DNA of 64,000 bases. Source: Lutjanus erythropterus. Taxonomy: Eukaryota > Chordata > Actinopteri > Lutjaniformes > Lutjanidae. The position numbers and the translations under genes are program-made. The stretch spans positions 5,946,122 to 6,010,121 of the forward strand of contig CM034602.1 of NCBI GenBank assembly GCA_020091685.1, given 5' to 3'. The notes under the pieces are model-generated. The model searched no databases and was not told the origin of the DNA. It was given only the letters and a program-made list of their open reading frames with translations. Shown piece after piece: positions 13,630-28,802 of the stretch; positions within the stretch are counted from its first letter, which is position 1, and each line of letters starts with the position of its first letter.

Positions 13630-15410
13630 CTGTTAACTGAGCTACACTTTCATTTCTTGTTTTACAGCATGGGCAGTAAATCCATATTTCAGCTTTTCCC
13701 TGCAAGCTTACCTTCTGTACATTCCACTTGTGGCTCCTCCCACTGTCCATCTGGCCTACAGCGTATCACAGGCAGGTGGCGCTGTGTGTAGCCTGCGTCA
13801 CACTGGTAGCGGACGATAGAATTGACGGGGTAGCGCTCCCTGCTGCTGCCCATCGGCCGGCCGTGTGCCACCTCAGGGGGCGCTCCACACATGACTGAAA
13901 ATGAAGACGGTTGGCAGTTATGAAGTTTGTCTTAGTCAAGGTTACTGGTTCATTTTTTGCATAACCCCACTTGAGATTCTTGTTTTTTTGACATGGTTTA
14001 TCTGTCATCTGTTATCTGCCTGAGATTATCTACAACCACAGTAAAACAAACTTTTTAGCAATCCAACCATATGTTCACATCTTTAAAGCTAATTCCCCTA
14101 CTAGAAAGAATTCCCAGAATCAGTTCTTGGCCAGACACTTATTTTAAACCAGTAAGCCTACCAGGTCCAGTCTTGCAGGTGAAGGGAAGGTGGTAGTTGC
14201 AGGGCACATCATTCCACTGTCCGCCCTCGTGCCAGATCATCACCACACAATCCTCCCCAGAGTTGAAGTAGTTATCTGGCTGGTTGGGCCTCCAGTTCTC
14301 AAAGGTCTAGGGAAGTTACAAAGGTAGTCACTAAAACCATTAAAACATAGATGATAGTAGATACTGTAGTTGATAAGCAACCAAACTCACCAGAGGACTG
14401 CCATCTGTCCAGCGGAACTCATTCTGCACATCTTTGTCGTTAAGTCCGATCCATTGGTAGTCCTGACCGTTGGCTGCATAGCAAACAAAAAGAGAATTTA
14501 GCTTTGAAACTACTACATGTCCTCCCCTCACATCACTCAAATGGCCCCAGCAGAAACACGATGCCCCCCTCCAGGAGCGCAGTGCTAACCACCCTAGCCT
14601 TACAGCAATAAGGTCCTCAGTTTGAAACCAACCCAGTTGGCTGGTGAACTGTCCAGTTCCCTGCCTGTTACCCAGTCCACGTAGGGTGGGTGTTAATCTT
14701 GGAACCCATCAACTATTGTCTGATGACAATTTAGCCTCTGGGGTGAATGACCAAAACTTTAGGGTTTCCGGTGTAGCCAGGGGAGTTGGATGTTAGAGAT
14801 GACGTCTACAACCAGATTGTTTGTGCAGATCAGCATGTCTTTTGCTTTCCCCTGGTCCGGTTATCTGCACCTAACCAGAGCCCGCTAAAATGTGATTGGT
14901 CAATATTATTTTGAACTACAACTGGAAATCAGAATGCTTCTGATACAAACATTTTGTCCTTTGCTGGCAGATTTTTCATTTATATGCAGATATCTGTTTA
15001 TATAGTTAAGTTGGGCACAGACATGAATAGGATTAGCATGTGTAGGAAGAGATGAACACAAGGATCAATTTTTACTTTCAACAAGAAAATGTCCTTTTAA
15101 TCTCTATGATAAAGTAGTGTGAAGGAGCATCATCATGCCAAAAGTCCCCCGGGCAACCAGTAGATGTCACTAGAGCAGTGACCTGACCCCTCAGTAGATT
15201 CCCAGCAGTGAACACTGTCAGCCATTTATCAAAACTTGACATTAGATAACTTTAGAATTATTCAGCATTATGACTGCTGCTAGGTACAGATACATAGATG
15301 CATATAAAATAAAGACACTTAAAAATAATCACACTTGTATGCTTGTTACTTTGCACACACTCAAATGGCATTGATTGCCTGCAGACCAGTTAGACACACA
15401 CACACACACA

Positions 15411-15463
<53 letters not shown>

Positions 15464-18400
15464 CTACTCACAGTTGACAAACTCCTGCTCCTCCTGGGAA
15501 GCAATGCTGACCAGGTGAGCGTTGACCTCCTGACAGCGTTGCTCAGCCTCAGACCAGGTGTCTCTCTCAGCAAAGTGAAGGTAACAGTTGCCCTTGAACT
15601 CCAACCAGCCCTCGGCACAGCCCTGCACAGCTACACACACGAACATACACATCACATCACATTTGGCCAGTATAAAAATACATCCAATCCATCATCCAAT
15701 CCAACGTACTCTAGTTTTTCCACATCAATGGCAAACTTATTGCGCTGTGTTTATATGGTGGTTTGGTAACTCACGTGTGGAGCAGTCTTCACCAGTGAAA
15801 CCACTAGGACACTGGCACACAGCAAGCTCTCCCTGCACAGTGCAGGTTCCTGAACTGCAGGGGTTTGGATCACAGGGGTTTGCAGAGGCTGATAGAAGAG
15901 AGGAAGGAATTTTACTTCATGACTGAAAATGATGCTGGACGTAGAAAGCTTTTTTTGGCCTTACACCGCTTCCTAGCAGAGCGAGAGAGCAAACTTGAGC
16001 GGATGGAGCATGAAAAATTGTCCAGCTATACTATAAGTGATTTTGCAGCGGTGCTGCTTGTGATTTCTCCTTCTGCAAATGATTGTGTTAAGTAATTTTC
16101 CTAAGTCAGACTTGTTTCTATATATTTTGGGGACTGTTTGCTTACAGCTCTGCACCGATGTGGATCTTGGAGGATGTCCCTGTAAAAAGGGTGCTGTGGA
16201 TGATGTAAGATGTCCCCCTTCTCAACCTTATAAATTAGTCTCTTACTGTCTATATTAACTGCTTACTGAATGGGAAACAGAAACCTCAAGGACATCTGTG
16301 TCGATTTTGACCAAAGAATATATGTGTGTGCAAAACTTTGCAAAACTAGAACCAGGGCAAGCAGCTTTTCGAGCAAGAGAAATGTCACTTAGCCTGCTTG
16401 CTGAAGCACAGAACAGCTTTGGAAATAGAAACAATCTGATGTTTGCTCGTTTACATCGCTTCTAGTTAGGAAGTGGTGTTATGAAACTGTAAGATATGAA
16501 CAGAACTACAGCAAAGTAAAGTAAACCACATACCGTCCACTACTTCAGGCTGCTCCACAACAGCAGGGGTTGCTAATGACACTGATGGTGCTGTGGTTGG
16601 GCTGCCGGAGGCTGTGTCTGGAGTCACAACATACTCTGTGGGTCCTGTACGACCTTCTTGAATCCCCTCCTCGAGTCCTGATTGGCCAAGACTGTCAGTG
16701 TACTCAGTGTAAGTAACTTGAGTTACAGGTAGGTCGAAAGAAAGCTCCTCAGCAGTTGGCCTTTCATGATGGTCTCCACTTCCTGAGGGGTGCAAGCTTT
16801 GGTCCAAAGTGCCACTGAATTCACGATGGATCCCTGATGCACTTCCTTCCCCGCTTACCTCCACGACACCCCGGCCCTGCTCAGGGTGGCGTATCTGTGG
16901 CGGTACGGTCACTTCCATCATGTCATTGTCTGTTAGGTAGATGACATCACCACGATGCTGGAAAGAGTCCCCAGAGGTGGAGCTGCTGCCTGAGACACCT
17001 GATGGAAAACCACTGTGGAACTCTGATCCAAAGGGGCGATAACCGGACACCTCCTGCTCACCAGACGGCTGGACTGTAAGGTCAACGGCACTGTGGTCAA
17101 CAAATGAGATGCCAGAAAATCCATCATAGCCTGACCCAGACATATCTCCCGATCCGGACGTATGTGACTCCAAGATGCCTCCCTGGCCTAACTCCTGCTC
17201 AGTGGGTTTTTGGTGTGTCACCTCCACCATCTCCCTATCCACCATGGTGATGATCGTATCCCCACTGCCACTTACACTGGTAAAACCTGACTCAGTGAAG
17301 CCAGAGTGTTGTCTGTCAAGCCCCTCTCCAGATCCAAATGCACTACCCTCTTCTCCAGATGGGAAGGTGACAGCACTTCCTCCTTCTGCTTCCTGCGGGC
17401 CTCCAGAGGCAGAGTAGAATCCGGAGATGACATCGTGGCGTCCGCTGAAGGTGACGCCCTCTCCAGACCCATCACCACTGGCACTGGTGGTGCTGGACTC
17501 CCCTGAGAACTCCCCGCTAGCTGAACCAGAGCCAGACACATCAACATGGACTGGAGGTAAAATGGGCCTCACTGAGTGAAAAAATAAGAATCAAGATGAG
17601 AGTTGTGTTTAAAGTAAAGTGAAACTGAGCTTATTGAAGTGATACAACTGTGGCTACGGAGAAAATACACTTTTCATTCATGCTGTTATTTACATCTGTC
17701 TTACCAGGAGGAGAAACATGTTGAGTTGTGATGGTTGTCCTGTTGATAACCTCCTCTATTTCAGTAATATTCACATGGGTTTCAGTTTCATTGTAGTGAA
17801 CAGTAGATTCAACTAAAAACAAACAAAAAGCAAAGAAAAGGGAGATGATCATGCATAGAATTATCAATAATAGTATTTAACAAACTACCCTCAACAAAAA
17901 TATAAATGCACTTTTGTGTTTGTATCCATTTGTCATGAGTTGAAGTAAAAGGTCTAAGATAAGCTACACGGGTGCTTTGGGATGGTAACACTGAACGGCC
18001 ACTCAAAAATGTGCAGTTTTAAATTGAAAAGACGCACATCTACTGATACCATGGACCATCTTTTTTACTGGATCGTCTAAAACACTGGGTTGGCAACTCT
18101 GCTCTGATATTTTAGTATTGCTACTGGAAACGCTCGGTCATCCTCTGTGAAGATGTTGGGTGATGTGTGGAGTACCCCAGGGGTCGATCTTCAGACAACC
18201 TTTGTTCTCTCTTTACATGTTAACTCTGGGGCATGTATTCCAAAGGCTTTGGAATGAGCTTCCATTCATATGCAGATGACACTCAGATGTACATCTCTGT
18301 CAACCCGAATAATCTTAATCAAATTAACATGCTCAATATCGGCATCCTTCAACGCAAATGCTCAATGACCCAGAACTTCCTGCAGCTAAATTTTGACAAG

Positions 18401-21400
18401 CCTGAGCTAAGTTTAATTGGCCTTGGCACAGTTAATGCATATTTTTCGAAACATATGGGCTCCCTGTCCCAAAATATAGCACGCAATTGCAAAAATCTTT
18501 ACCCCGAACAAACATGTAAATATCGTTGTTCTGTTTGGGTTGGTTAGGTTTAGGCATGATGAGTGATTGGTTAGGGATAGGGTAAGAAATTTAGATTAAA
18601 CCAATCAGAGGCAGAGTAAAGCCGGTCTTGACTTTGCCTCCAGGGAAAAACTTTTGGTATCTGTAGGCCTGTGCAAACTAGCCATAGTTCAGTGCCTAAT
18701 AAATGTATTTTTGCAAGATAAAACTGCACATTAGCCTTTTACTGTGACCTGTCCAAGGCACACCTGGGCAATAATCCTGCTGTTTAATCTGAATCTCTAT
18801 ATACCACACATGTCAGGTTTCTATTTTTGTGGAGTGTAGATAAAAAATCCAGTTGTACCATTGACAGCGAGGTAAAACTGTTGTGTGGTCATGCCATGGA
18901 TGTTGGTGGCCACACAGGTATACTGAGCTCTGTCACTGAGATCAACCATGTTGATCTGCAAGTAGCGGCCATTGGACAGAATATGCACACGGTCAGAAGC
19001 CTACAAAAAGAGAAAGTAATTTGTGAATACATTTTTGAAGAAGTCATAGTATTGTGTGAATATTTGTTTATTTGTTTGTTTGATTTCTGACCTGCAGTGG
19101 TTGGCCGTCTTTGAGCCAGGTCAGAGTTGGAGTTGGAACAGCGTCAGACTTGCACTCCAGAGTCACCTGTTCGTAATGCAGCACGGTCACATCCTGAGGA
19201 GTACTCTCCCCTGCAGCAAGGACTGTGACAGGAAAACCAGGAAGAAACAGACGATGACATTGCCAAATCTCATCTCACAAAATTCAAGAGACATGAACTC
19301 ATGAAATACGTGAGCAAAAACAAAAGTTTTGCATTCATACAAGCCCTCAAAAACACTTAGTGTAAAATGAAAACAATGATGCAATGATTTGCAAATCCTC
19401 TTTGATCTATATCCAATTGAGTAAAGACAAGATATTTAATTTTCAAACTTTATTGGATTTTGTAAATCTACACTCATTCTGAATTTGATGTTCAAAGTAA
19501 GTTAGGACAGGGGCAACAAAAGACTGGGAAAGTTGTGGATTAACCAAAAAACACGTGTGTGGAACACTCCACATGAAAACAGGTTAGCTGGTAACAGGGT
19601 AGTAAAGGGGCAACGATCACAAGCAAGGTTGGGGCAAGGTTCACCATCTTGTAAAAAACTGCAGAAGCAAAGACCAAAAGATTAAAAATGTTTCTCAATA
19701 CACAATTTAAAAGAGGTAAGAAATTTCACTATTGTCCACAGTGTCCACATTTCAGATGGAAATCATGGACACCATGCCTTCTGCGCTAAAAATGAGAAGG
19801 ACCATCCAGTTTGTCACCAACACAAAAGCTAGCATCTGTGATTGTATGGGTTTGTGTTAGTACTCATGGCAAGGGTAACTGTCAAATCTCTGCAGGCCCC
19901 ATAAAGGCTGATTAATGCTGCTGGCACATACAGGTTTTAGAGCAACATATGCTGCCATCTTTCTGGATGGGTTAGGGTTACTTCAACTTCAAAAATTAGT
20001 GTCCTCAGTTCCCAAATGCTTACTGTGTGTTGTTAAAAGAAAAGTTGATGTATCACAGTGGTAAACATGCCCCTCTCCCAACTTTTTTGGAACATGTTCC
20101 ATGCATCAAATTCAAAATGAGTGTGCATTTACAAAAACAATAAAGGTAATTCATTTGGACATTAAATATCTCATCTTTGCACAGTATTCAGCTGAATGCA
20201 GATCGAAACATTTTTGCAAATTTGCATTGCATACTGTTTCTATTTAGGTTTTATGCAGACTTTTTTTGGAATTTGGGTTGTATTTTTGATGACTGTAGAC
20301 AAAAGATGTGTCTGTACCATTGACAATCAGGTTAAACTGTTGTCTGGTGATGCCGTCGATGTTGGTGGCCACACAGGTGTACTGAGCTCTGTCACTGAGC
20401 TCAGCCATGTTGATCTGCAAGTAGCGTCCATTGGACAGAATGCGCACACGGTCAGAAGCCTATAAAGAGATAAAAAGTAAGTTGAGAATATGTTTTATGA
20501 CAACTTATAGCATTGTGTGGATATTTGTTTGTTTGTTTGATATCTAACCTGCAGTGGCTGGTCATCTTTGAGCCAGGTCAGACTTGGTGTTGGAACAGCG
20601 TCGGACTTGCACTCCAGAGTCACCTGTTTGCTCTGCAGCACAGACACGTCCTGAGGTGTAGTCTCCTCTGCAGTGGCAACTGTTACAGGAAAACCAGAGA
20701 GAAAGAGGCAATAACATGGATTTAATAGCCCAATTTCATTTTACAAAATTTGAGAGCAATCAGCTGATGAAAAATGGAGGCAAAAACAAAAGTGCTACAT
20801 TTATATTTTTGAGTATAGATACAAGATGTAGCTGTACCATCGACAACCAGGTAAAAGTGTTGTCTGGTGATGCCATGGATGTTGGTGGCCACACAGGTAT
20901 ACTGAGCTCTGTCACTGAGCTCAGCCATATTGATCTGCAAATAGCGGCCACTTGACAGAATATGCACACGGGAAGAGGCCTGCAAAAACATAAAAAGTTG
21001 TGAATATGTTTTTGGAGAAGTCACAGTGTTGTGTGAATATTTCTTTGCCTGTGTGATTTCTGACCTGCAGTGGTTGGCCATCCTTGAGCCAGGTCAGAGT
21101 TGGAGTTGGAACAGCGTCAGACTTGCACTCCAGAGTCACCTGTCCATTCTGCAGCACGGACACGTCCTGAGGTGTGCTCTCCCCTGCAGCAAGGACTGTC
21201 ACAGGAAAACAATAAAGAGACAAGCATTGATTTGATCCCAATCGCATCTCACAAAATCTGAGAGAAATCAACTCATGAAAAAACAAAAAACAAAAAAAAC
21301 AAAAGTGTTCTATGTTCTATTTTTGTTGAGCGTTGATAAAAGATATAACTGTACCATTGACAATCAGGTTGAAGTGTTGTCTGGTGATGCCATCGATGTT

Positions 21401-24400
21401 GGTGGCCACACAGGTGTACTGAGCTCTGTCACTGAGCTCAGCCATGTTGATCTGCAAGTAGCGGCCATTGGACAGAATGCGCACACGGGAAGAGGCCTGC
21501 AAACAAATAAAAAATCATTTGTGCATATGTTTCAGGAGAAGTCATAGCGTTGTGTAATTGTTGGCTTGTTTGATTGCAGACCTGCAGTGGTTGGCCGTCT
21601 TTGAGCCAGGTCAGAGTTGGAGTTGGAACAGCATCAGACTTGCACTCCAGAGTCACCTGTTTGTTCTGCAGTACGTACACATCCTGAGGTGTAGTCTCTC
21701 CTGTAGTGGGGACTGTTACAGGAAAGAAATCCACAATCAATTTGAGAAAAATAGGACCAAAAAAAGGTGTCGCATTTCTATTTGTGTGTAGAAGATATAG
21801 CTGTACCATTGATAATCAGGTTAAACTGTTGTGTGGTGATGCCATGGATGTTGGTGGCCACACAGGTATACTGAGCTCTGTCACTGAGCTCAACCATGTT
21901 GATCTGCAAGTAGCGGCCATTGGACAGAATGCGCACACGGGAAGAGGCCTACAAAAAGATAAATAAAAGTGATTTTTGAATGCATTTAGAACTAATCTAA
22001 CTAATCTTGGCATTGTGTGAATATTTTGGTTGTTTTGTTTGATTTCTGACCTGCAGTGGTTGGCCGTCTTTGAGCCAGGTCAGAGTTGGAGCTGGAACAG
22101 CATCAGACTTGCACTCCAGAGTCACCTGTTTGTTCTGCAACACGGACACGTCCTGAGGTGTAGTTTCTACTGTAGTGGGGACTGTTACAGAAAAGAAATC
22201 AACAATTTGTGAAAAATGGGAGCAAAAACAGTGTTGTGTTTCTATTGTCATTGAATTTAGACAGAAGATATAACTGTACCATTGACTATCAGGTTAAACT
22301 GTTGGGTGGTCATGCCATGGATGTTGGTGGCCACACAGGTATACTGAGCTTTGTCACTGAGCTCAGCCATGTTGATCTGCAAGTAGCGGCCACCGGACAG
22401 AATACGTACACGGGAAGAGGCCTATAAAAAGATAGAGTAAGTGTGAATGCAATGTAGGAGAAATCATGGCATTGTGTGAATATTTGTTCGATTTCTGACC
22501 TGCAGTGGTTGGCCATCTTTGAGCCAGGTCAGAGTTGGAGCTGGAACAGCATCAGACTTGCACTCCAGAGTCACCTGTTTGTTCTGTTGCACGGACACGT
22601 CCTGACGTGTAGTCTCCCCTGCTACAGGGACTGTTACAGGAAAACCAGAAAGAGACAGACACCAACAGGAATGTTACAGCCCAATCTCATCTCTTAAAAG
22701 TTGAGAGAATCAACTCATGAAAATGGGAGCAAAAACAAGGGCACTGCATTTATATTTCTGTTGTCTACTTTGGCAAATTTCTGACCAAGTATTATGATAA
22801 ATATTAAACCCAACATTGGTAATGACAGTGACTGAAGAGACCAGATTCCATGCATCTGTCTTACCTGTGGGGGCAAAGCGATCAGTTGTGACTGTTGTCT
22901 TGTTAATAACATCCTCTGTCACTGTCGTCACATTCACAGCAATTTCAATGTGAGTTTCAGCTTAAAAAAAGAAAATAACAGATTGGTTAAGCACTGCTCA
23001 TTTTTTGTCAGTAATGTCAACTGTTAGCCATGACCTTTATCGCCAATAGTTTTATCAAACTTTAAAAACTATTTATCCATTACATTGCATTGGACATTGT
23101 TCAGTTGCAACCGCTGACTGAATATGTGGATTTTCTTTTTTAAATCAACCCTTTCAAATTAACTGAGTCATTCTACAATCTTTCCAAGTACCCCCTGACA
23201 ACTGCAGAGGTATGTCTTGGTGTACAAACACCCCTGGCTGGGAATCACAGCAGTACTATATCAAGTTGTTATGGCAAATGGCAAATGTTTATGTTGTGCA
23301 TGTGTAATATCTTCTTAGACCAGGGGTTTCCAAACTTTTTTCAGCTCCAGACCCAAAAGAAAAATCTGGCATCCCCACCTAACTCTTTCCTACCTTTAAA
23401 GCAGTAGGCGTCGTAGCGTGAGTGCTCATCAGGAAATCCTGTCTGGTTGGGGTATGCGTAGATGATGTGGACCCCAACCTGACCTCCTCCACAGTGGGCC
23501 CTGGGGGTTGTGATGGGGTAGCGGACGCTGCGGTCCATCAGCCAGCCTGGACGACACTTGTCGAGCCCTTGCTTCCAGGCAGAATACAGCTGTCCAGTGG
23601 TGGCTAGGGTGGTGTTGAGTTTCTGACAGTGCTGCACAGCCTCCTCATAAGAGAAGCTGTCGTAGTCACTGGTGAAGAAGACCTCACCTAGGAGACAGAT
23701 AGACAGATACAGATAGATAGATTTATGACTGTAATGATGTAAATTTTAGTATATCAGTTTCAGGGAGTTATTGAGATCCTCACCTTGCAGACGTTCCACA
23801 TAACAAAATACATCATAACGTTCGCTGGTTGGTCTCAGGCCGTAGGATCTGACTCCTGGGAGGTGTAGCATATTACCAGCACAGTTATCTCTGGGTGACA
23901 CGATGGGATACCTGTGCAAAACAGAGGATGATAGCACAAAATATTAAGGTTTAGCTTCAGCATAATATCCCTCTGGAAATCTACTGTGTAATTGTTTGAT
24001 CTCATTGTAAGGATTGCAAGACTACCTTATGAATAGAACTCCAACTGCCCACACATTATGGGAAACATTAATATATTGGTCTATCGCTATTCTGCATAGG
24101 CCTCCAGCTCACCTGACAGTCTGGTCACGGAGCCAGCCAGCGTCACATTGGTGCAAGCCCTTCTCGAAGGCTGCCTGCAGCTGCTGTGGGCTGGCAATGA
24201 CAGCCCCAGCATCTTGGCAGGCCTGCTGAGCCTCCCGGAAGGTCAGAGTGTACCGGCCAGTGATGGGTCGGTAGTGGAACACCACACCTGGGAAAAGAGA
24301 AGGAGGAAGGATGTAAGGTAAAAAGTTTCATTTTATGCTTTTTTCTATTTTTCTTCAAGCTTAGGCTACTTTCCTCAGTCACTTTTATTTCCTCATGCAT

Positions 24401-27400
24401 GTCTTCAAAGACCCAGATTGTGATCTTTTACTCTGGGATGAGACTCCTGGCCAATTAATGAGCCTCAGACATGCATGAGAAGATTTTGTGGAGGTTGTGT
24501 GTTTCTCTATATTTCAGTAAAAACAGTGCTTGGATTGATGCTGGAATACTTTAATTTTGATGAGTTTTGATACTGTTAGGATTAGACTTGCACCGATTTC
24601 AACTTTCTTAGCCGATTCCGATTTCCGATTTTTGAGGGGTCTGACCTACCGATTCCGATTTTGGCCGGTTCCGATTTTCAGTCTTTCTAAGAACTGTAAC
24701 TGACAGCATTCACAAACATTTTTGCAACTTTTCTTGTAAATATGTTCATAATAAGACACTGACTATTAAATATTCATTTAATACTTTCTCCAAAATCATC
24801 CAGATTACAACCAGGCCTTATTATAATTTTATATTAAGATTATGAATTGGGTGAACGTGATCTCGCGAGATCATCTCGCGGGATTTTGTGGGACGCGATT
24901 TCACGTGATCTTTTGTGGAAGCGGATGTAAACAAACCGGAGACTAACGCGGTGCATCAGTTTGAAGTAAAACTTTGCCGTGAGAAAAACAAACACAGAAG
25001 TTAACGGAGTCTGGATGAGAAAATGTTTGAGGAGACGCATCAACACAGGTTGTTTATTCTTCAGCCAGAACAGGAGGTGAGATTTGAACTGTCCCTCTGT
25101 GAACAGCAGTCTGCTGCTAGCTTGCTAGCATTAGCCTGAAGTGCGAGAGAGTTTACGGCTGTTTTGCGACATTGTCAGCTGCTCTGTCTCGTTGTAGACT
25201 GTCTGTCTTCTCTTTATCTTGGTCTTGGAATCTGTCTCTGACACCATCTTCAAGCAGACGTGTCAGAGTGTGTAGCTGTCATCAGCGCTGTGTTGACGTC
25301 ACGGTCAGTTTGTATGCTGCGCGCATGACGTGACCATCGTGCGGAACATGTGTGTGACAATGACGGGCACAGAACCGGATTTGTGACGCTGACCGGCCGG
25401 TCACCGGTCAAGGCCAGTCACGTGAAAACCGGCCCGATTCCGAGCATTGCCGATTAATCGGTGCAAGTCTAGTTAGGATGTTGCCTGCTGTGGAACCTGA
25501 ACAGCGAACGGAAATATGATTCTTATTTTTATTTTTAAATAGGCGGTGTACTGAGAGAATTTATATTTGATCAACACTACCTAGTTTGACAGTTCGATCT
25601 GAGTTTTGTGAGCCCTGTATATTGCGCTCAACGTATTGTCTGAGAATGACTTGACAAGCAAAGCTGTCATCTATTTTTGCTCTAAATGGGACCATAATTT
25701 ACAGAACAAACATCATACTGTATTGAAGATTTTAAACTAGTGATTAGGATCATTGACCACTTCAGAAATTGATAACTGAGGTCATAAATCATGTAAGAAG
25801 TAGGGCAATTTTCCCTTATGACCCCATGCAATTGGACTATGTTTTGAAACCAGTCGGCCCCTGCTGGAAGGTCTTAGAAAGGATGCAGGTTTTAGGCACT
25901 TCCACATGGGCTTCACTTTTAAGACCTCAAACCTCCATCCACTATTTATTATTGTGCTGGTCTACAATGTATTCTTACAGTTTAAAGAAACATTTGAAGG
26001 GTTTTGTTATTGATCAAGTACACAACCAACTTACCAGTGGGAGCCATTGCAGCATAGATGTCTGTCAGTCCAGGCTCACGTACCACAGGAGTCTCTTTAG
26101 AGTATGTGTCTGTCACACTGGGTGGGACGGGCAGTGGGACGAGGGTGTCGACCTCTCCACCCACAATCTCCTCCCGGCCAGGGCGGGGGGTGAGGCCTGG
26201 GTACACTCCAGGGGCAGGTGTCATGCGGATGATGTCTGGGAAAGGGGTGGTCCTCATGGGTACAGCATCTTGATCCTCACCAGCTGAGGAGGCGAGATTG
26301 CACAGTTGTGACCTTAAAGCCTTATTGTCTAACACCAAATTAAGGTTGATGGCATCAATCAGCAATGATCCTAGAAATTCATAAAATCCTAAAGAAGAAA
26401 TGCACCCTAAAAAAGCCTTCATTATAGTTTTACCTTGGAAGCAGATGGCATCATAGCGAGAGTCTGGGTAGGGGTATCCTGTCTGGTTGGGGAACAGGTA
26501 GATGGTTCGGACACCCAGGAGCCCTCCTCCACACTGAGGCCTGGCGATGTTGATGGGATAACGTACACTCCTGTCCCCCAGCCAGCCAGCGTTACACACA
26601 TCCATGCCAGCCTGCCAGGCCAGGTAAAGCTCTCCGGTGGTGGCGAGCCGGGCCCCAAGTTTGGCACACTGATCTCCTGCTTCATAGAAGGTGAACTTCT
26701 CTACGGACATGGAGTAGAAGACTCTGCCTGGGAGGAGAGAGGACAGCACAGCACAATACATTGACATGACAGTCCACAGTTAGTCAGGAAGCTTCTGTTG
26801 CTGCTTGTGTTTTATTAGTGTACCTGTCAACTTCTCGGCAAAGCAGTACACATCGTAGGTCTCGTTGACATCTCTTACACCATAGGTTCTCACGCCGGGG
26901 AAGGTCTCCTTGTCTCCATAGCAACGTTCACGTGGCTCCTGGATTGGGTACCTTGAGAAGTCGAGAAAGGTGTCTCTCAGCAGATGGACTTGAAAAGTCA
27001 GTAACAACATTAATTCTGTTACTGTGTCACTTGCAATGTTAAAAACATTTGTTTTATATTGACGCTGTCAGAGTGGATTGATGGATTGATGGATGGACAC
27101 TACCTAACAGTCTGATCAGAGAGCCATCCAGCATCACACTGGTGGTATCCATCATCGTAAGCAGCCTGGAGCTGGGCTGGAGTGGCGATGGTGGCGCTGT
27201 TCTGGATGCAGGCTGCCTTTGCCTTCTCAAATGTCAGGGTGTAGCGGGTGGAGATGGCTCGGTAGTGGAACACAATACCTGTGAGATACAGGAAGTGAGC
27301 AGGAAGACAGAAAAACAGTTATTAAATATCTTTTAAAAAAAATGGCTGGCTTTAACTCTTCATGTTGGGTTCTTTGTAAAAGTTACTACCAGGAACCACA

Positions 27401-28802
27401 AAGGGTTCTCCTGTGGAGTCAAGCCAAACAACCCTTTATGGTTCTAGTTAGCACCTTTATTTCTAAGAGTGTTAATATGCAGGGGCAAAGCTGCTGTTAG
27501 TTGTTTCAACAAGCACTGATGAATGTTTGACTATCACGTAGCGAGTAGATGAATTTTGATTGGTGTCGTGAATGTTGTGTGGTGTACCTTGAACCTGGAC
27601 CTCCACAGAGTCGTAGTTGTCCTCAATGCCCTGCATGACCTCACAGCGGTAGGTGCCAGAATCTTTGGACCTCAGCTCCGTTATCTCCATGGTGGCGTCA
27701 GTAGGCACCAGCGGGTAGTTGATCATCGTCACTCTGTCCAAATACTCTGTCTCCACGTTAACTTTTCCCTCTGACGCCACCAGGATGGTGGTGACCTTCT
27801 CCTTGGTAACATAGGTCCATTTGATGCGGTGGGAGAGCGGGGCGATGGTCGGGGCTCCGGGGTCATTTACTGTGTTGTCCTGGAAGTAGCACGGTATCAC
27901 CACCTTGCCACCCAGCAGAGGATGGAGAGGCATTTCCATTGGGATGCTGACACGCAATGTTCCATCCAAGTCTAGGGTAAAGATAGGTCATGATTAATTT
28001 TCTTTTACAGAAAGTCAGAATTATTATAGGACACTTCTGGACAAGAGGAGCCAAGGACAGATCCATTTCATTCACCTAGATCCTTTTCTGTGTGTCATCC
28101 CCTCTCTTTCCCCCCTTTTTTGTCTGTATTTGCCTGTACTATCAAATAAAGGCAAAAAAAATACAGTCTCAGGAGCTGATCAGGCACCGATACATCGATA
28201 CAGACACCAACACTTCAAAAACACCTTGGCAAAGTGCTCAGTGTTGGACAAATCAGCTGGTGTGCCTATGGAGAGCGGGGATCAAATTTGACTAATGGTG
28301 AAAAAATGGATTCAGGAAGGAAGTGGTAAAGTAGTCACGCCCTCCTCTTGCTTGATTTGATTGGTTGTCTGAGTGTGACGATGACAAGCCATGCAACTCC
28401 ACGCCTTGTACTGACAAGTTAAGAGTATTTTAACTTTTATGTGCATCTGAAAACTGAAAACCTTTAAACTACTTAAAATCCTTCTTTGCACTACTTGGTT
28501 CTCTGCTTGTCAGTTTTTTGGGAGGTTACTATGTTTCTAGGAAAATGTCTCGAAATATAATGGGTCAAAAGAGTCAAAAAACAAACTCTCAGATGAGACC
28601 AAAAAAGCGAAAAGAAAGAACATAGATGCACTACCACATACACATTAATTGGAGCACAGAACGGAAAGGGGTGGGTTTTAGAGAAGGTCAGTTGCTCCTG
28701 TAGTTTTTCAACAGTCAGCGCACGCTTACCTTCATGGTCTTCAAATGATATTGTTGCCGAGATGAGGGGCAAGGACACACACAGCAGAAGCAGGGGGGTC
28801 AT
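13496..28802 (-). CDS. acan: Aggrecan core protein with an in-frame array of six I-set Ig domains (whole gene span, 30 coding exons)
   Basis: Exons in transcript order: 28802-28730, 27971-27588, 27278-27104, 26951-26824, 26727-26434, 26283-26035, 24287-24113, 23911-23784, 23687-23394, 22960-22865, six Ig pairs between 22630 and 18859, 17812-17705, 17571-16534, 15888-15775, 15630-15472, 14473-14391, 14306-14162, 13894-13712, 13629-13496. The sum is 5598 nt with every splice phase matching. Domains: signal 1-17, G1 (Ig plus two Links) 25-351, interglobular 352-434, G2 (two Links) 435-633, linker 634-665, Ig array 666-1211, second linker 1212-1247, Ser-Gly region 1248-1593, EGF 1594-1631, C-type lectin 1632-1760, sushi 1761-1821, tail 1822-1865. 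Having both G1 and G2 distinguishes aggrecan from versican, neurocan and brevican. It is a secreted cartilage-matrix proteoglycan that binds hyaluronan. The last exon is the weakest part of the model. Confidence 0.88.
13712..13894 (-). CDS. acan: acan coding exon 29: sushi (CCP) domain
   Basis: 183 nt, phase 1 to phase 1. '[10 protein letters not shown]', 'VRYQCDAGY', 'IRCRPDGQW' and 'VECTEG' give the four cysteines and Trp of a complement control protein module. It closes the G3 domain. Confidence 0.93.
14162..14306 (-). CDS. acan: acan coding exon 28: C-type lectin domain, part 3
   Basis: 145 nt, phase 0 to phase 1. It carries '[11 protein letters not shown]' (QPD calcium/ligand motif) and '[17 protein letters not shown]' (WND motif). 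The lectin domain therefore looks competent to bind calcium and its protein ligands such as tenascins. Confidence 0.93.
14391..14473 (-). CDS. acan: acan coding exon 27: C-type lectin domain, part 2
   Basis: 83 nt, phase 1 to phase 0. '[20 protein letters not shown]' contains the W-I-G-L motif. The donor is GTGAGT. Confidence 0.93.
14566..14770. repeat. Diverged tRNA-derived SINE in acan intron
   Basis: 'gcgcagtgctaaccacccta' followed by 'acagcaataaggtcctcag' resembles the tRNA-like head of a common fish SINE, then a diverged body to about 14770. Confidence 0.45.
15394..15462. repeat. (CA)n microsatellite in acan intron
   Basis: About 34 CA units with one interruption, close to the donor of the lectin exon 1. 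Confidence 0.95.
15472..15630 (-). CDS. acan: acan coding exon 26: C-type lectin domain, part 1
   Basis: 159 nt, phase 1 to phase 1. '[18 protein letters not shown]' and '[15 protein letters not shown]' are standard for the N-terminal half of lectican C-type lectin domains. A CA microsatellite follows eight bases after the donor (15394-15462). Confidence 0.93.
15775..15888 (-). CDS. acan: acan coding exon 25: EGF-like domain (start of G3)
   Basis: 114 nt, phase 1 to phase 1. '[13 protein letters not shown]' and '[12 protein letters not shown]' give the six cysteines of an EGF module. It lacks an obvious calcium-binding D-x-N/D-E start. Mammalian aggrecan has two alternatively spliced EGF exons; only one was found here. 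Confidence 0.9.
16534..17571 (-). CDS. acan: acan coding exon 24: Ser-Gly-rich glycosaminoglycan-attachment region
   Basis: 1038 nt, phase 1 to phase 1, 346 residues in one exon, as the chondroitin-sulfate region is in other aggrecans. About 33 Ser-Gly dipeptides are present, many in acidic settings ('SGEFSGESS', '[10 protein letters not shown]', 'SGSGD'), which suits xylosylation. Two related segments, '[16 protein letters not shown]' and '[16 protein letters not shown]', show internal duplication. It is much shorter than the human region (well over 1000 residues). No regular mammalian-style 19- or 20-residue repeats are evident. The frame stays open past the donor to 16466 but the splice site at 16533 fits the EGF exon. 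Confidence 0.9.
17705..17812 (-). CDS. acan: acan coding exon 23: linker exon, copy 2
   Basis: 108 nt, phase 1 to phase 1, about 36 residues: '[20 protein letters not shown]' then '[13 protein letters not shown]'. It has three N-glycosylation sequons (NET, NIT, NRT). It is paralogous to the exon at 22865-22960. Acceptor 'gtttttag', donor GTAAGA. Confidence 0.82.
17883..18840. mobile_element. Split DNA-transposon remnant in an acan intron
   Basis: The left part (17883-18035, 'caacaaaaatataaatgcac' ... 'aaaaatgtgcagtttta') and the right part (about 18709-18840, 'taaaactgcacattagcc' ... 'aggcacacctgggcaataat') look like the two sides of one common fish DNA transposon. The sequence between them includes a LINE fragment. 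No transposase frame survives. The family assignment is from memory of the end sequences. Confidence 0.5.
18155..18520 (+). pseudogene. Non-LTR retrotransposon reverse-transcriptase fragment, degraded
   Basis: Forward translation around 18163 gives 'CGVPQGSI', and around 18260 gives '[19 protein letters not shown]' in a different frame. G-V-P-Q-G-S and Y-A-D-D are conserved reverse-transcriptase motifs of LINE elements. The frame is broken between them, so it is a dead fragment. It lies antisense to acan within the intron after Ig domain 6. Confidence 0.8.
18859..19222 (-). CDS. acan: acan Ig array, domain 6 (exons 19222-19092 and 19000-18859)
   Basis: Same geometry; residues 1121-1211. It is the most diverged first half ('[18 protein letters not shown]') and has '[20 protein letters not shown]' in the second half. 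All sites for splicing into 17812-17705 are intact (donor GTACAA, phase 1). Confidence 0.87.
19379..20232. mobile_element. Non-autonomous DNA transposon (MITE) with long terminal inverted repeats
   Basis: The two ends are imperfect inverted repeats of about 130 bp. Left: 'gacaagatatttaattttc' and 'cactcattctgaatttgatg'. Right, read in reverse: 'gatgagatatttaatg' and 'cactcattttgaatttgatg'. The element is about 850 bp and non-coding. It explains the large intron between Ig domains 5 and 6. No clear target duplication was recognised, so the superfamily is left open. Confidence 0.75.
20318..20679 (-). CDS. acan: acan Ig array, domain 5 (exons 20679-20549 and 20459-20318)
   Basis: Same geometry; residues 1030-1120. 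It starts '(V)[18 protein letters not shown]' and has '[15 protein letters not shown]', sharing the Asp variant with domain 6. The intron after it is about 0.95 kb longer than the others because a transposon has inserted. Confidence 0.88.
20838..21195 (-). CDS. acan: acan Ig array, domain 4 (exons 21195-21065 and 20979-20838)
   Basis: Same geometry; residues 939-1029. '[18 protein letters not shown]' and '[18 protein letters not shown]'. It ends 'HFYLVVD' where others end in 'VN'. The introns also resemble those of its neighbours. Confidence 0.88.
21355..21712 (-). CDS. acan: acan Ig array, domain 3 (exons 21712-21582 and 21496-21355)
   Basis: Same geometry; residues 848-938. '[18 protein letters not shown]' in the first half, '[20 protein letters not shown]' in the second. 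No frameshift or stop. Confidence 0.88.
21807..22181 (-). CDS. acan: acan Ig array, domain 2 (exons 22181-22051 and 21948-21807)
   Basis: Same 131 + 142 nt, phase 1-0-1 geometry; residues 757-847. It has '[18 protein letters not shown]' and '[17 protein letters not shown]'. It is preceded by a 98-bp intron after domain 1. Acceptors and donors are intact (GTCAGA, GTACAG). Confidence 0.88.
22280..22630 (-). CDS. acan: acan Ig array, domain 1 (exons 22630-22500 and 22421-22280)
   Basis: Two exons of 131 nt (phase 1 to 0) and 142 nt (phase 0 to 1) encode one I-set Ig of 91 residues (666-756). The first half gives '[20 protein letters not shown]' (B-strand Cys, core Trp). The second gives '[16 protein letters not shown]' (L-x-D-x-A-x-Y-x-C). 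It resembles hemicentin-type I-set repeats, not the V-set Ig of G1. This copy differs from the others by '[10 protein letters not shown]' and 'LSGGRYLQ'. Confidence 0.88.
22865..22960 (-). CDS. acan: acan coding exon 10: linker exon, copy 1
   Basis: 96 nt, phase 1 to phase 1, about 32 residues rich in Thr, Val and Asn. '[17 protein letters not shown]' contains two N-glycosylation sequons. It closely resembles the exon at 17705-17812 (shared 'ETH', 'VIN[KR]TT[VI]TT' and 'P-x-G' end), so the Ig array is bracketed by a duplicated linker. The acceptor is 'ttctttttttaag' and the donor GTAAGA. Confidence 0.82.
23394..23687 (-). CDS. acan: acan coding exon 9: G2 Link module 2
   Basis: 294 nt, phase 1 to phase 1. 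'[17 protein letters not shown]', '[15 protein letters not shown]', 'AHCGGG' and 'AYCFKG' give a full Link module. The core reads C-R-P-G-W rather than the C-[DN]-A-G-W of the other Links, as is known for G2, which binds hyaluronan poorly or not at all in mammals. Confidence 0.93.
23784..23911 (-). CDS. acan: acan coding exon 8: G2 Link module 1, second part
   Basis: 128 nt, phase 2 to phase 1. '(R)[13 protein letters not shown]', 'GVRSYG' and '[10 protein letters not shown]' complete the Link module. Confidence 0.93.
24113..24287 (-). CDS. acan: acan coding exon 7: G2 Link module 1, first part
   Basis: 175 nt, phase 1 to phase 2, the same size and split as the matching G1 exon. It begins '[20 protein letters not shown]' and ends '[11 protein letters not shown]'. 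The identical exon geometry supports G2 arising by duplication of the G1 Links without the Ig. Confidence 0.93.
24583..25471. mobile_element. hAT-type non-autonomous DNA transposon in an acan intron
   Basis: The termini are inverted: 'tagacttgcaccgat' at 24583-24597 and 'atcggtgcaagtcta' at 25457-25471. Both ends are flanked by the identical 8-bp duplication 'gttaggat' (24575-24582 and 25472-25479). An 8-bp target-site duplication is diagnostic of the hAT superfamily. The element is 889 bp, has no transposase frame and is CpG-rich inside. It lies between the interglobular exon and the first G2 exon. Confidence 0.9.
26035..26283 (-). CDS. acan: acan coding exon 6: interglobular domain between G1 and G2
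   Basis: 249 nt, phase 1 to phase 1, about 83 residues, rich in Pro and Thr ('[15 protein letters not shown]', '[11 protein letters not shown]'). In mammals this region is longer and carries the aggrecanase site TEGE|ARGS. I see no such motif here; the nearest Glu-rich segment is '[13 protein letters not shown]'. The acceptor 'gcctcctcag' and donor GTAAGT are good. Confidence 0.85.
26434..26727 (-). CDS. acan: acan coding exon 5: G1 Link module 2
   Basis: 294 nt, phase 1 to phase 1. A complete Link module in one exon: '[17 protein letters not shown]', then '[15 protein letters not shown]', 'PQCGGG' and 'AICFQG'. The 'LFPNQTGYP' segment is the usual signature of the second Link of aggrecan G1. 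Confidence 0.94.
26824..26951 (-). CDS. acan: acan coding exon 4: G1 Link module 1, second part
   Basis: 128 nt, phase 2 to phase 1. It continues '(R)[15 protein letters not shown]' and ends '[10 protein letters not shown]', completing the four Link cysteines. 'GVRTYG' is the conserved Link core. Confidence 0.93.
27104..27278 (-). CDS. acan: acan coding exon 3: G1 Link module 1, first part
   Basis: 175 nt, phase 1 to phase 2. It begins '[20 protein letters not shown]' and ends '[11 protein letters not shown]' plus a split Arg codon. The first two Link cysteines are present ('KAACIQ', 'HQCDAGW'). The same 175 + 128 nt split recurs in the first Link of G2. Confidence 0.93.
27588..27971 (-). 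CDS. acan: acan coding exon 2: G1 V-set Ig domain
   Basis: The acceptor is 'ctttaccctag' and the donor GTACAC, phase 1 to phase 1, 384 nt. Residues 25-152. Ig hallmarks are 'VVIPCYFQD' (B-strand Cys), 'RIKWTYV' (core Trp) and '[16 protein letters not shown]' (C'-strand Cys). It is clearly the V-set type shared with link proteins and different from the I-set domains of the later array. Confidence 0.93.
28078..28160 (+). repeat. SINE 3' tail fragment in acan intron
   Basis: 'gtgtgtcatcccctctcttt' leads to 'tgtactatcaaataaaggca' and a short A-rich end. This is the typical tail of a widespread fish tRNA-derived SINE. Confidence 0.6.
28730..28802 (-). CDS. acan: acan coding exon 1: signal peptide
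   Basis: The acceptor 'atatttttcag' ends at 28809, so the exon starts at 28808 with six untranslated bases ('gcaacg') before the ATG at 28802-28800. It encodes '[19 protein letters not shown]', a clear signal peptide, then 'FEDHE'. The donor is GTAAGC and the exit is phase 1. The ATG at 28823 in an upstream frame lies in the intron and is not used. Confidence 0.88.

Follow-up and report, generated by a model that had tools for sequence, protein, structure and literature searches.

How does a fish aggrecan gene come to hold a row of immunoglobulin (Ig) domains that resemble those of another matrix protein? The question is raised by a stretch of 64,000 nucleotides of Lutjanus erythropterus DNA (GenBank assembly GCA_020091685.1, contig CM034602.1, positions 5,946,122 to 6,010,121 of the forward strand), called the window here. 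Its minus strand carries a complete aggrecan gene (acan), in which six tandem I-set Ig domains stand between the G2 region and the serine-glycine (Ser-Gly) exon. On the evidence below, we consider it very likely that one Ig domain of hemicentin-1 was copied into this one aggrecan gene, was multiplied to six and has been selected as protein.

The array consists of 12 exons in six pairs of 131 + 142 nt, running from 22630 to 18859 on the minus strand with the phase pattern 1-0-1. The starts of the first (A) exons were set 131 nt upstream of each splice donor, and the second (B) exons were bounded by motif. An AG acceptor was found at the set start of all six A exons, and the B exon measures 142 nt in 6/6 pairs. 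Each pair is entered and left in phase 1 and has an inner intron in phase 0, and the reading frame runs through into the flanking exons. Since the module is phase 1-1 and 273 nt long, adding or skipping a whole pair leaves the frame intact, which is not so for a lone exon. Each pair encodes 91 residues, and all six products are scored by Pfam as I-set at 64–71 bits (cut-off 23.7). Cysteines 24 and 73 are conserved in every domain, and an N-glycosylation sequon is present in none of the six. The inner introns are 78–102 nt long and the outer introns 94–159 nt, except for a repeat-bearing one of 1095 nt. A preliminary description of this DNA had reported six such exon pairs with intact splice sites and open frames, encoding 91-residue I-set domains. 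Both statements hold, with AG/GT throughout and an open frame of 1851 amino acids. It had also called the domains near-identical, which is slightly too strong: they are clearly alike, but their mutual identity is 80–91% (protein). Its placement of the array between the G2 and Ser-Gly exons is right for the region but not for the direct neighbors, which are two short exons, N1 and N2 (Table 1).

The host gene was modeled with 30 coding exons, giving 1851 amino acids and a single stop at the end. Exon edges were placed by eye and then checked by reading frame; all 29 acceptors are AG and all 29 donors GT. The encoded domains follow the order G1, interglobular domain (IGD), G2, six I-set Igs, Ser-Gly, EGF, lectin, Sushi. 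Pfam identified the V-set (28.1 bits, cut-off 26), Xlink at 422.8 bits in four stretches forming two pairs (G1 and G2), and the EGF, C-type lectin and Sushi domains (G3) at the C-terminus. When G1 was compared with solved structures, aggrecan G1 (9dff) was the best of 13 (E 7.9e-156). Among the matches to the C-terminal part, 1tdq, a chain of aggrecan, came fifth by whole-sequence score, after four multi-lectin receptors, and was the top entry among those with a single matched stretch. The Ser-Gly exon has 33 SG dipeptides in 346 amino acids and is presumed to be the chondroitin-sulfate attachment region. A neighboring gene on the plus strand, at 3.6–4.8 kb of the window, contains V-set and Xlink exons, with two Link matches at C12:5950625-5951240 on the contig within which the window sits; because of these exons it fits a hapln gene beside a lectican. 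The V-set with its four Xlink stretches, the top rank of 9dff for G1 and the V-set/Xlink neighbor together support the identification of the gene as aggrecan, as had been proposed.

The source of the array was sought in the species' own genome (938 Mb, 444 contigs). A protein search with Ig3, in which 150 of 549 candidates were scored (some with stops where the match enters introns), gave a single relative outside acan with more than 50% identity among those scored, a two-exon domain at C7:39243592-39243944. This domain lies inside a cluster of Ig exons, which is followed by thrombospondin-1 (TSP1) repeats (4/4 open reading frames chosen), G2F (2/2) and EGF_CA (2/2). From this order of a long Ig array, TSP1, G2F and EGF_CA, the gene on C7 appears to be hemicentin-1; we take the TSP1 repeats to be the mark of hemicentin-1 as opposed to hemicentin-2. 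Nine Ig domains, their exon halves paired by us, lie between the donor domain and the first TSP1 repeat. A genome-wide DNA search with the exon–intron–exon unit of Ig5 found seven places: the query itself, the five other acan units and C7:39243588-39243945 (83%, intron included). When 80 kb of C7 was compared by blastn with 17 kb holding the acan gene, the stretch C7:39243527-39243969 matched all six units at 80–83% over 361–448 columns, crossing the intron. The other matches among the best 45 are simple repeats, parts of the dispersed repeat (Table 1), short Ig-exon matches and, in another acan intron, a match of 65 columns for which we have no explanation.

The introns and the protein agree with this origin. 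The inner intron is more similar to the donor intron than all 500 shuffles in 5/6 comparisons. The donor protein is 77–82% identical to the six acan Igs and 32–51% identical to 33 other hemicentin-1 Igs, in a comparison of 34 of the 39 domains assembled from C7:39215000-39252000 (those with at least 70 residues). The first donor exon is 137 nt long, two codons longer than the acan A exons. Descent of the acan Igs from one hemicentin-1 domain is thus supported. Because the single-unit search gave only the six acan units and the C7 domain, and all units match over approximately 440 bp, a genomic copy of one two-exon Ig would have entered aggrecan and multiplied there. The copy would have been genomic DNA since the introns are shared with the donor; a retroposed cDNA was rejected for the same reason. 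The hemicentin-like look of the repeats, noted in the preliminary description together with a proposal to compare one domain with hemicentins, therefore traces in this genome to a single hemicentin-1 domain. Duplication of aggrecan's own V-set was also rejected, as the domains are I-set and, among the candidates scored, their closest relative outside acan is in hemicentin-1. Titin-type Igs were rejected as a source because the nearest relative among these candidates is on C7 and not in the clusters on C6.

Several side observations came from the same searches. Two large Ig clusters, at 37.26–37.47 Mb and 42.58–42.74 Mb of C6 and probably a titin pair, dominate an I-set family search. A second hemicentin-like Ig cluster lies at C9:3251656-3299153, with a top identity to the acan Ig query of 44% among the 150 scored of 549 candidates. 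In the intron of hemicentin-1 directly before the shared stretch (L024:8440-8540), there is sequence that resembles what we take to be a common fish repeat, and it may mark how far upstream the match can be seen. Bacterial and archaeal genome contigs were also scanned for stray fish sequence, which gave 52 pattern matches, none of them a relative.

The genome contains a second aggrecan gene (C1:4694817-4709492), in which Link4 is followed by one short exon and then the Ser-Gly exon. The six acan Igs matched nothing in the 40 kb around it better than E 0.44. The donor opens with a PPxI motif, as do 18 of the 34 hemicentin-1 domains compared (donor included; a lower bound, as the profile match cut some domain starts) against 0/6 acan Igs. 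Because the donor has PPxI and sits in a hemicentin array, and because the C1 aggrecan is free of such Igs, aggrecan is most likely the recipient. Simple patterns for keratan-sulfate hexapeptides had no match in the acan model or in C1:4699490-4703300. Such hexapeptide repeats follow G2 in some mammals, and the feature varies among aggrecans; the lack of matches was for this reason not taken to exclude aggrecan. The idea that the Ig rod stands in place of a keratan-sulfate region is not supported, since the C1 gene has just one short exon there and neither gene gave a hexapeptide match.

Within the array the mean nonsynonymous divergence (dN) is 0.081 and the mean synonymous divergence (dS) 0.220, with a dN/dS of approximately 0.37 (codon bootstrap, 300 replicates, 0.21–0.61). 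This argues that the array is under purifying selection as protein. Exon lengths are constant (12/12) while the inner introns vary. The selection, the conserved cysteines and the constant exon lengths argue that the Ig exons are translated. Between donor and array, dS averages 0.264. Fish neutral rates are a few changes per 10^9 sites per year, so the capture would date back tens of millions of years, and related species should share the array.

Several observations weigh against this account. The Ig2 intron alone is below the shuffle maximum (21 vs 30), and the part of the C7 array upstream of 39215000 lay outside the comparison of hemicentin-1 domains. Measured against the donor, with two donor codons dropped to align, dN/dS has wider bootstrap ranges (0.22–0.87). 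In simulations the exons stayed stop-free in 88/2000 runs with as many exon changes as observed and in 9/2000 at the dS-set rate, so freedom from stops is, by itself, modest evidence. The members of the array are not independent; gene conversion could lower dS and keep the frames open. The tree of the units has support of only 43–73. All six B exons have the 5' splice site ATG|GTACA, which deviates from the consensus. The same site is found at the hemicentin-1 exon, and GTACA is present at the acan V-set and Link1b donors.

These splice sites bear on the possibility that the Ig exons are mostly skipped, the insertion being a passenger tolerated because its units are symmetric. The GTACA donors on all six B exons would suit weak inclusion, and any number of whole pairs could be left out without a frameshift. 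We nevertheless regard skipping as unlikely, given the purifying selection on the encoded protein, the exon lengths that stay constant beside variable introns, the cysteines and I-set scores maintained in 6/6 domains, and the GTACA donors on two other acan exons. Introns border the Ig exons on both sides, and a separate gene with its own start and end could lie nested in an aggrecan intron. The first A acceptor and the last B donor are both in phase 1 and join N1 and N2 in frame on the same strand, and the stretch shared with hemicentin-1 contains one Ig domain only, so a nested gene is hardly credible.

Transfer in the other direction, from aggrecan to hemicentin-1, would explain why the C7 domain resembles the acan Igs much more than it resembles any of the 33 other hemicentin-1 Igs. 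It is very improbable, as the C7 domain is one member of a long row of hemicentin Igs and, unlike the acan copies, opens with PPxI, and the C1 aggrecan has no such Ig. Repeated units are prone to mis-assembly, and a misjoined sequence was considered as well. The units differ by 9–20% in protein and have distinct introns, and the window lies within its contig, where the array shares its reading frame with the flanking exons; an assembly artefact is thus scarcely to be expected.

We propose the following course for the capture from hemicentin-1. A genomic copy, exons and introns, of at least approximately 440 bp and holding one two-exon hemicentin-1 Ig would have been inserted into one of two aggrecan genes, between G2 and the Ser-Gly exon, where the introns are phase 1. 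Because the module is phase 1-1, the landing would not have disturbed the frame. The inserted unit would then have multiplied to six. The mature proteoglycan would hold six I-sets between G2 and the chondroitin-sulfate region, with a short sequon-bearing stretch on either side of them, and cartilage transcripts would include the Ig exons. Six Igs would form a stiff rod, approximately 20–25 nm long going by general Ig sizes, and would move the chondroitin-sulfate brush away from the hyaluronan backbone. The array most likely acts as a stiff spacer of six Igs that separates the hyaluronan-binding end from the chondroitin-sulfate region. The protein probably has an extra rod with no counterpart in the C1 aggrecan, and its Igs may bring hemicentin-type contacts to the cartilage matrix. 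Judged from the genome, it is probable that this fish lineage possesses a new form of cartilage proteoglycan, in which aggrecan bears a six-Ig rod acquired as exons plus introns from hemicentin-1, a giant protein of the junction matrix. Exon shuffling between two major matrix proteins would in this case be traceable in full, and cartilage would have gained either hemicentin-type contacts or a longer spacer.

Most domain shuffling among vertebrate matrix proteins is too old for donor and route to be recovered. In this case a single genome shows the donor domain, the introns that it shares with the array, a landing site of matching phase and a sister gene free of the Igs, and the course of the shuffling can be read from it directly. 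If the array is expressed, the architecture of a core cartilage molecule is altered, perhaps across a whole fish lineage. It would also allow a clean test of what stiffness between G2 and the chondroitin-sulfate brush does, for which the Ig-free paralogue could serve as control.

The gene shares with aggrecan (ACAN, of the lectican or hyalectan family) the G1 with V-set and Link1-2, the IGD, the G2 with Link3-4, the Ser-Gly region, the EGF, C-type lectin and Sushi domains and the V-set/Xlink neighbor. It differs in the six I-sets between G2 and Ser-Gly, which were not found in the C1 aggrecan and, to our knowledge, are in no described aggrecan. The Ig array of hemicentin-1 (HMCN1, fibulin-6) likewise has I-sets of 91–93 residues in two exons, with 80–83% DNA identity in one domain, intron included. 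In contrast to hemicentin-1, acan took one domain type only and multiplied it, PPxI was lost, and the shared stretch is without TSP1, G2F and EGF_CA. Perlecan (HSPG2) is likewise a matrix proteoglycan and has Igs in tandem in its domain IV, but it is not a lectican, and its array is old and is not known to be a copy of a hemicentin domain.

A survey of Fugu reported two aggrecan genes (PMC514892) and, in its accessible portion, does not mention Ig domains after G2. In the open PMC literature, including the accessible portions of PMC11788884, PMC12155565 and PMC8429575, we found no description of an aggrecan with Ig domains following G2; this covers neither subscription papers nor protein databases, and automatic gene models may well exist.

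Table 1. Exons and domains of the acan gene and the repeat within its Ig array (window coordinates).
Feature	Position	Strand	Basis
First coding exon (signal peptide)	28730..28802	-	gene model
G1 V-set Ig exon	27588..27971	-	gene model, Pfam
G1 Link1 exon a	27104..27278	-	gene model, Pfam
G1 Link1 exon b	26824..26951	-	gene model, Pfam
G1 Link2 exon	26434..26727	-	gene model, Pfam, 9dff match
Interglobular domain exon	26035..26283	-	gene model
G2 Link3 exon a	24113..24287	-	gene model, Pfam
G2 Link3 exon b	23784..23911	-	gene model, Pfam
G2 Link4 exon	23394..23687	-	gene model, Pfam
N1 short exon, two N-glycosylation sequons	22865..22960	-	gene model, blastn with N2
Ig1 I-set, exons 22630-22500 + 22421-22280	22280..22630	-	exon frame, Pfam, blastn
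Ig2 I-set, exons 22181-22051 + 21948-21807	21807..22181	-	exon frame, Pfam, blastn
Ig3 I-set, exons 21712-21582 + 21496-21355	21355..21712	-	exon frame, Pfam, blastn
Ig4 I-set, exons 21195-21065 + 20979-20838	20838..21195	-	exon frame, Pfam, blastn
Ig5 I-set, exons 20679-20549 + 20459-20318	20318..20679	-	exon frame, Pfam, blastn; genome-wide DNA query
Dispersed repeat, Ig5-Ig6 intron	19380..20250	.	genome matches
Ig6 I-set, exons 19222-19092 + 19000-18859	18859..19222	-	exon frame, Pfam, blastn
N2 short exon, three N-glycosylation sequons	17705..17812	-	gene model, blastn with N1
Ser-Gly exon (presumed chondroitin-sulfate region)	16534..17571	-	gene model, SG count
EGF exon	15775..15888	-	gene model, Pfam
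C-type lectin, three exons 15630-15472, 14473-14391, 14306-14162	14162..15630	-	gene model, Pfam, 1tdq
Sushi (CCP) exon	13712..13894	-	gene model, Pfam
C-terminal exon with stop codon	12526..12617	-	gene model

A search of the window with Rfam gave no matches. Within the 1.1 kb that separate Ig5 from Ig6 lies a repeat whose arms are partly complementary; parts of this repeat match the genome at 39 other places (among 40 candidates scored of 5218). A decayed seventh unit was rejected as a reading of this gap, since it contains the dispersed repeat. The two short exons that flank the array are related to each other, with 50/65 nt alike in blastn, splice donor included. Both bear sequons (Table 1), and the C1 aggrecan has one such short exon. 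The duplication of the N1/N2 exon may have come along with the Ig insertion.

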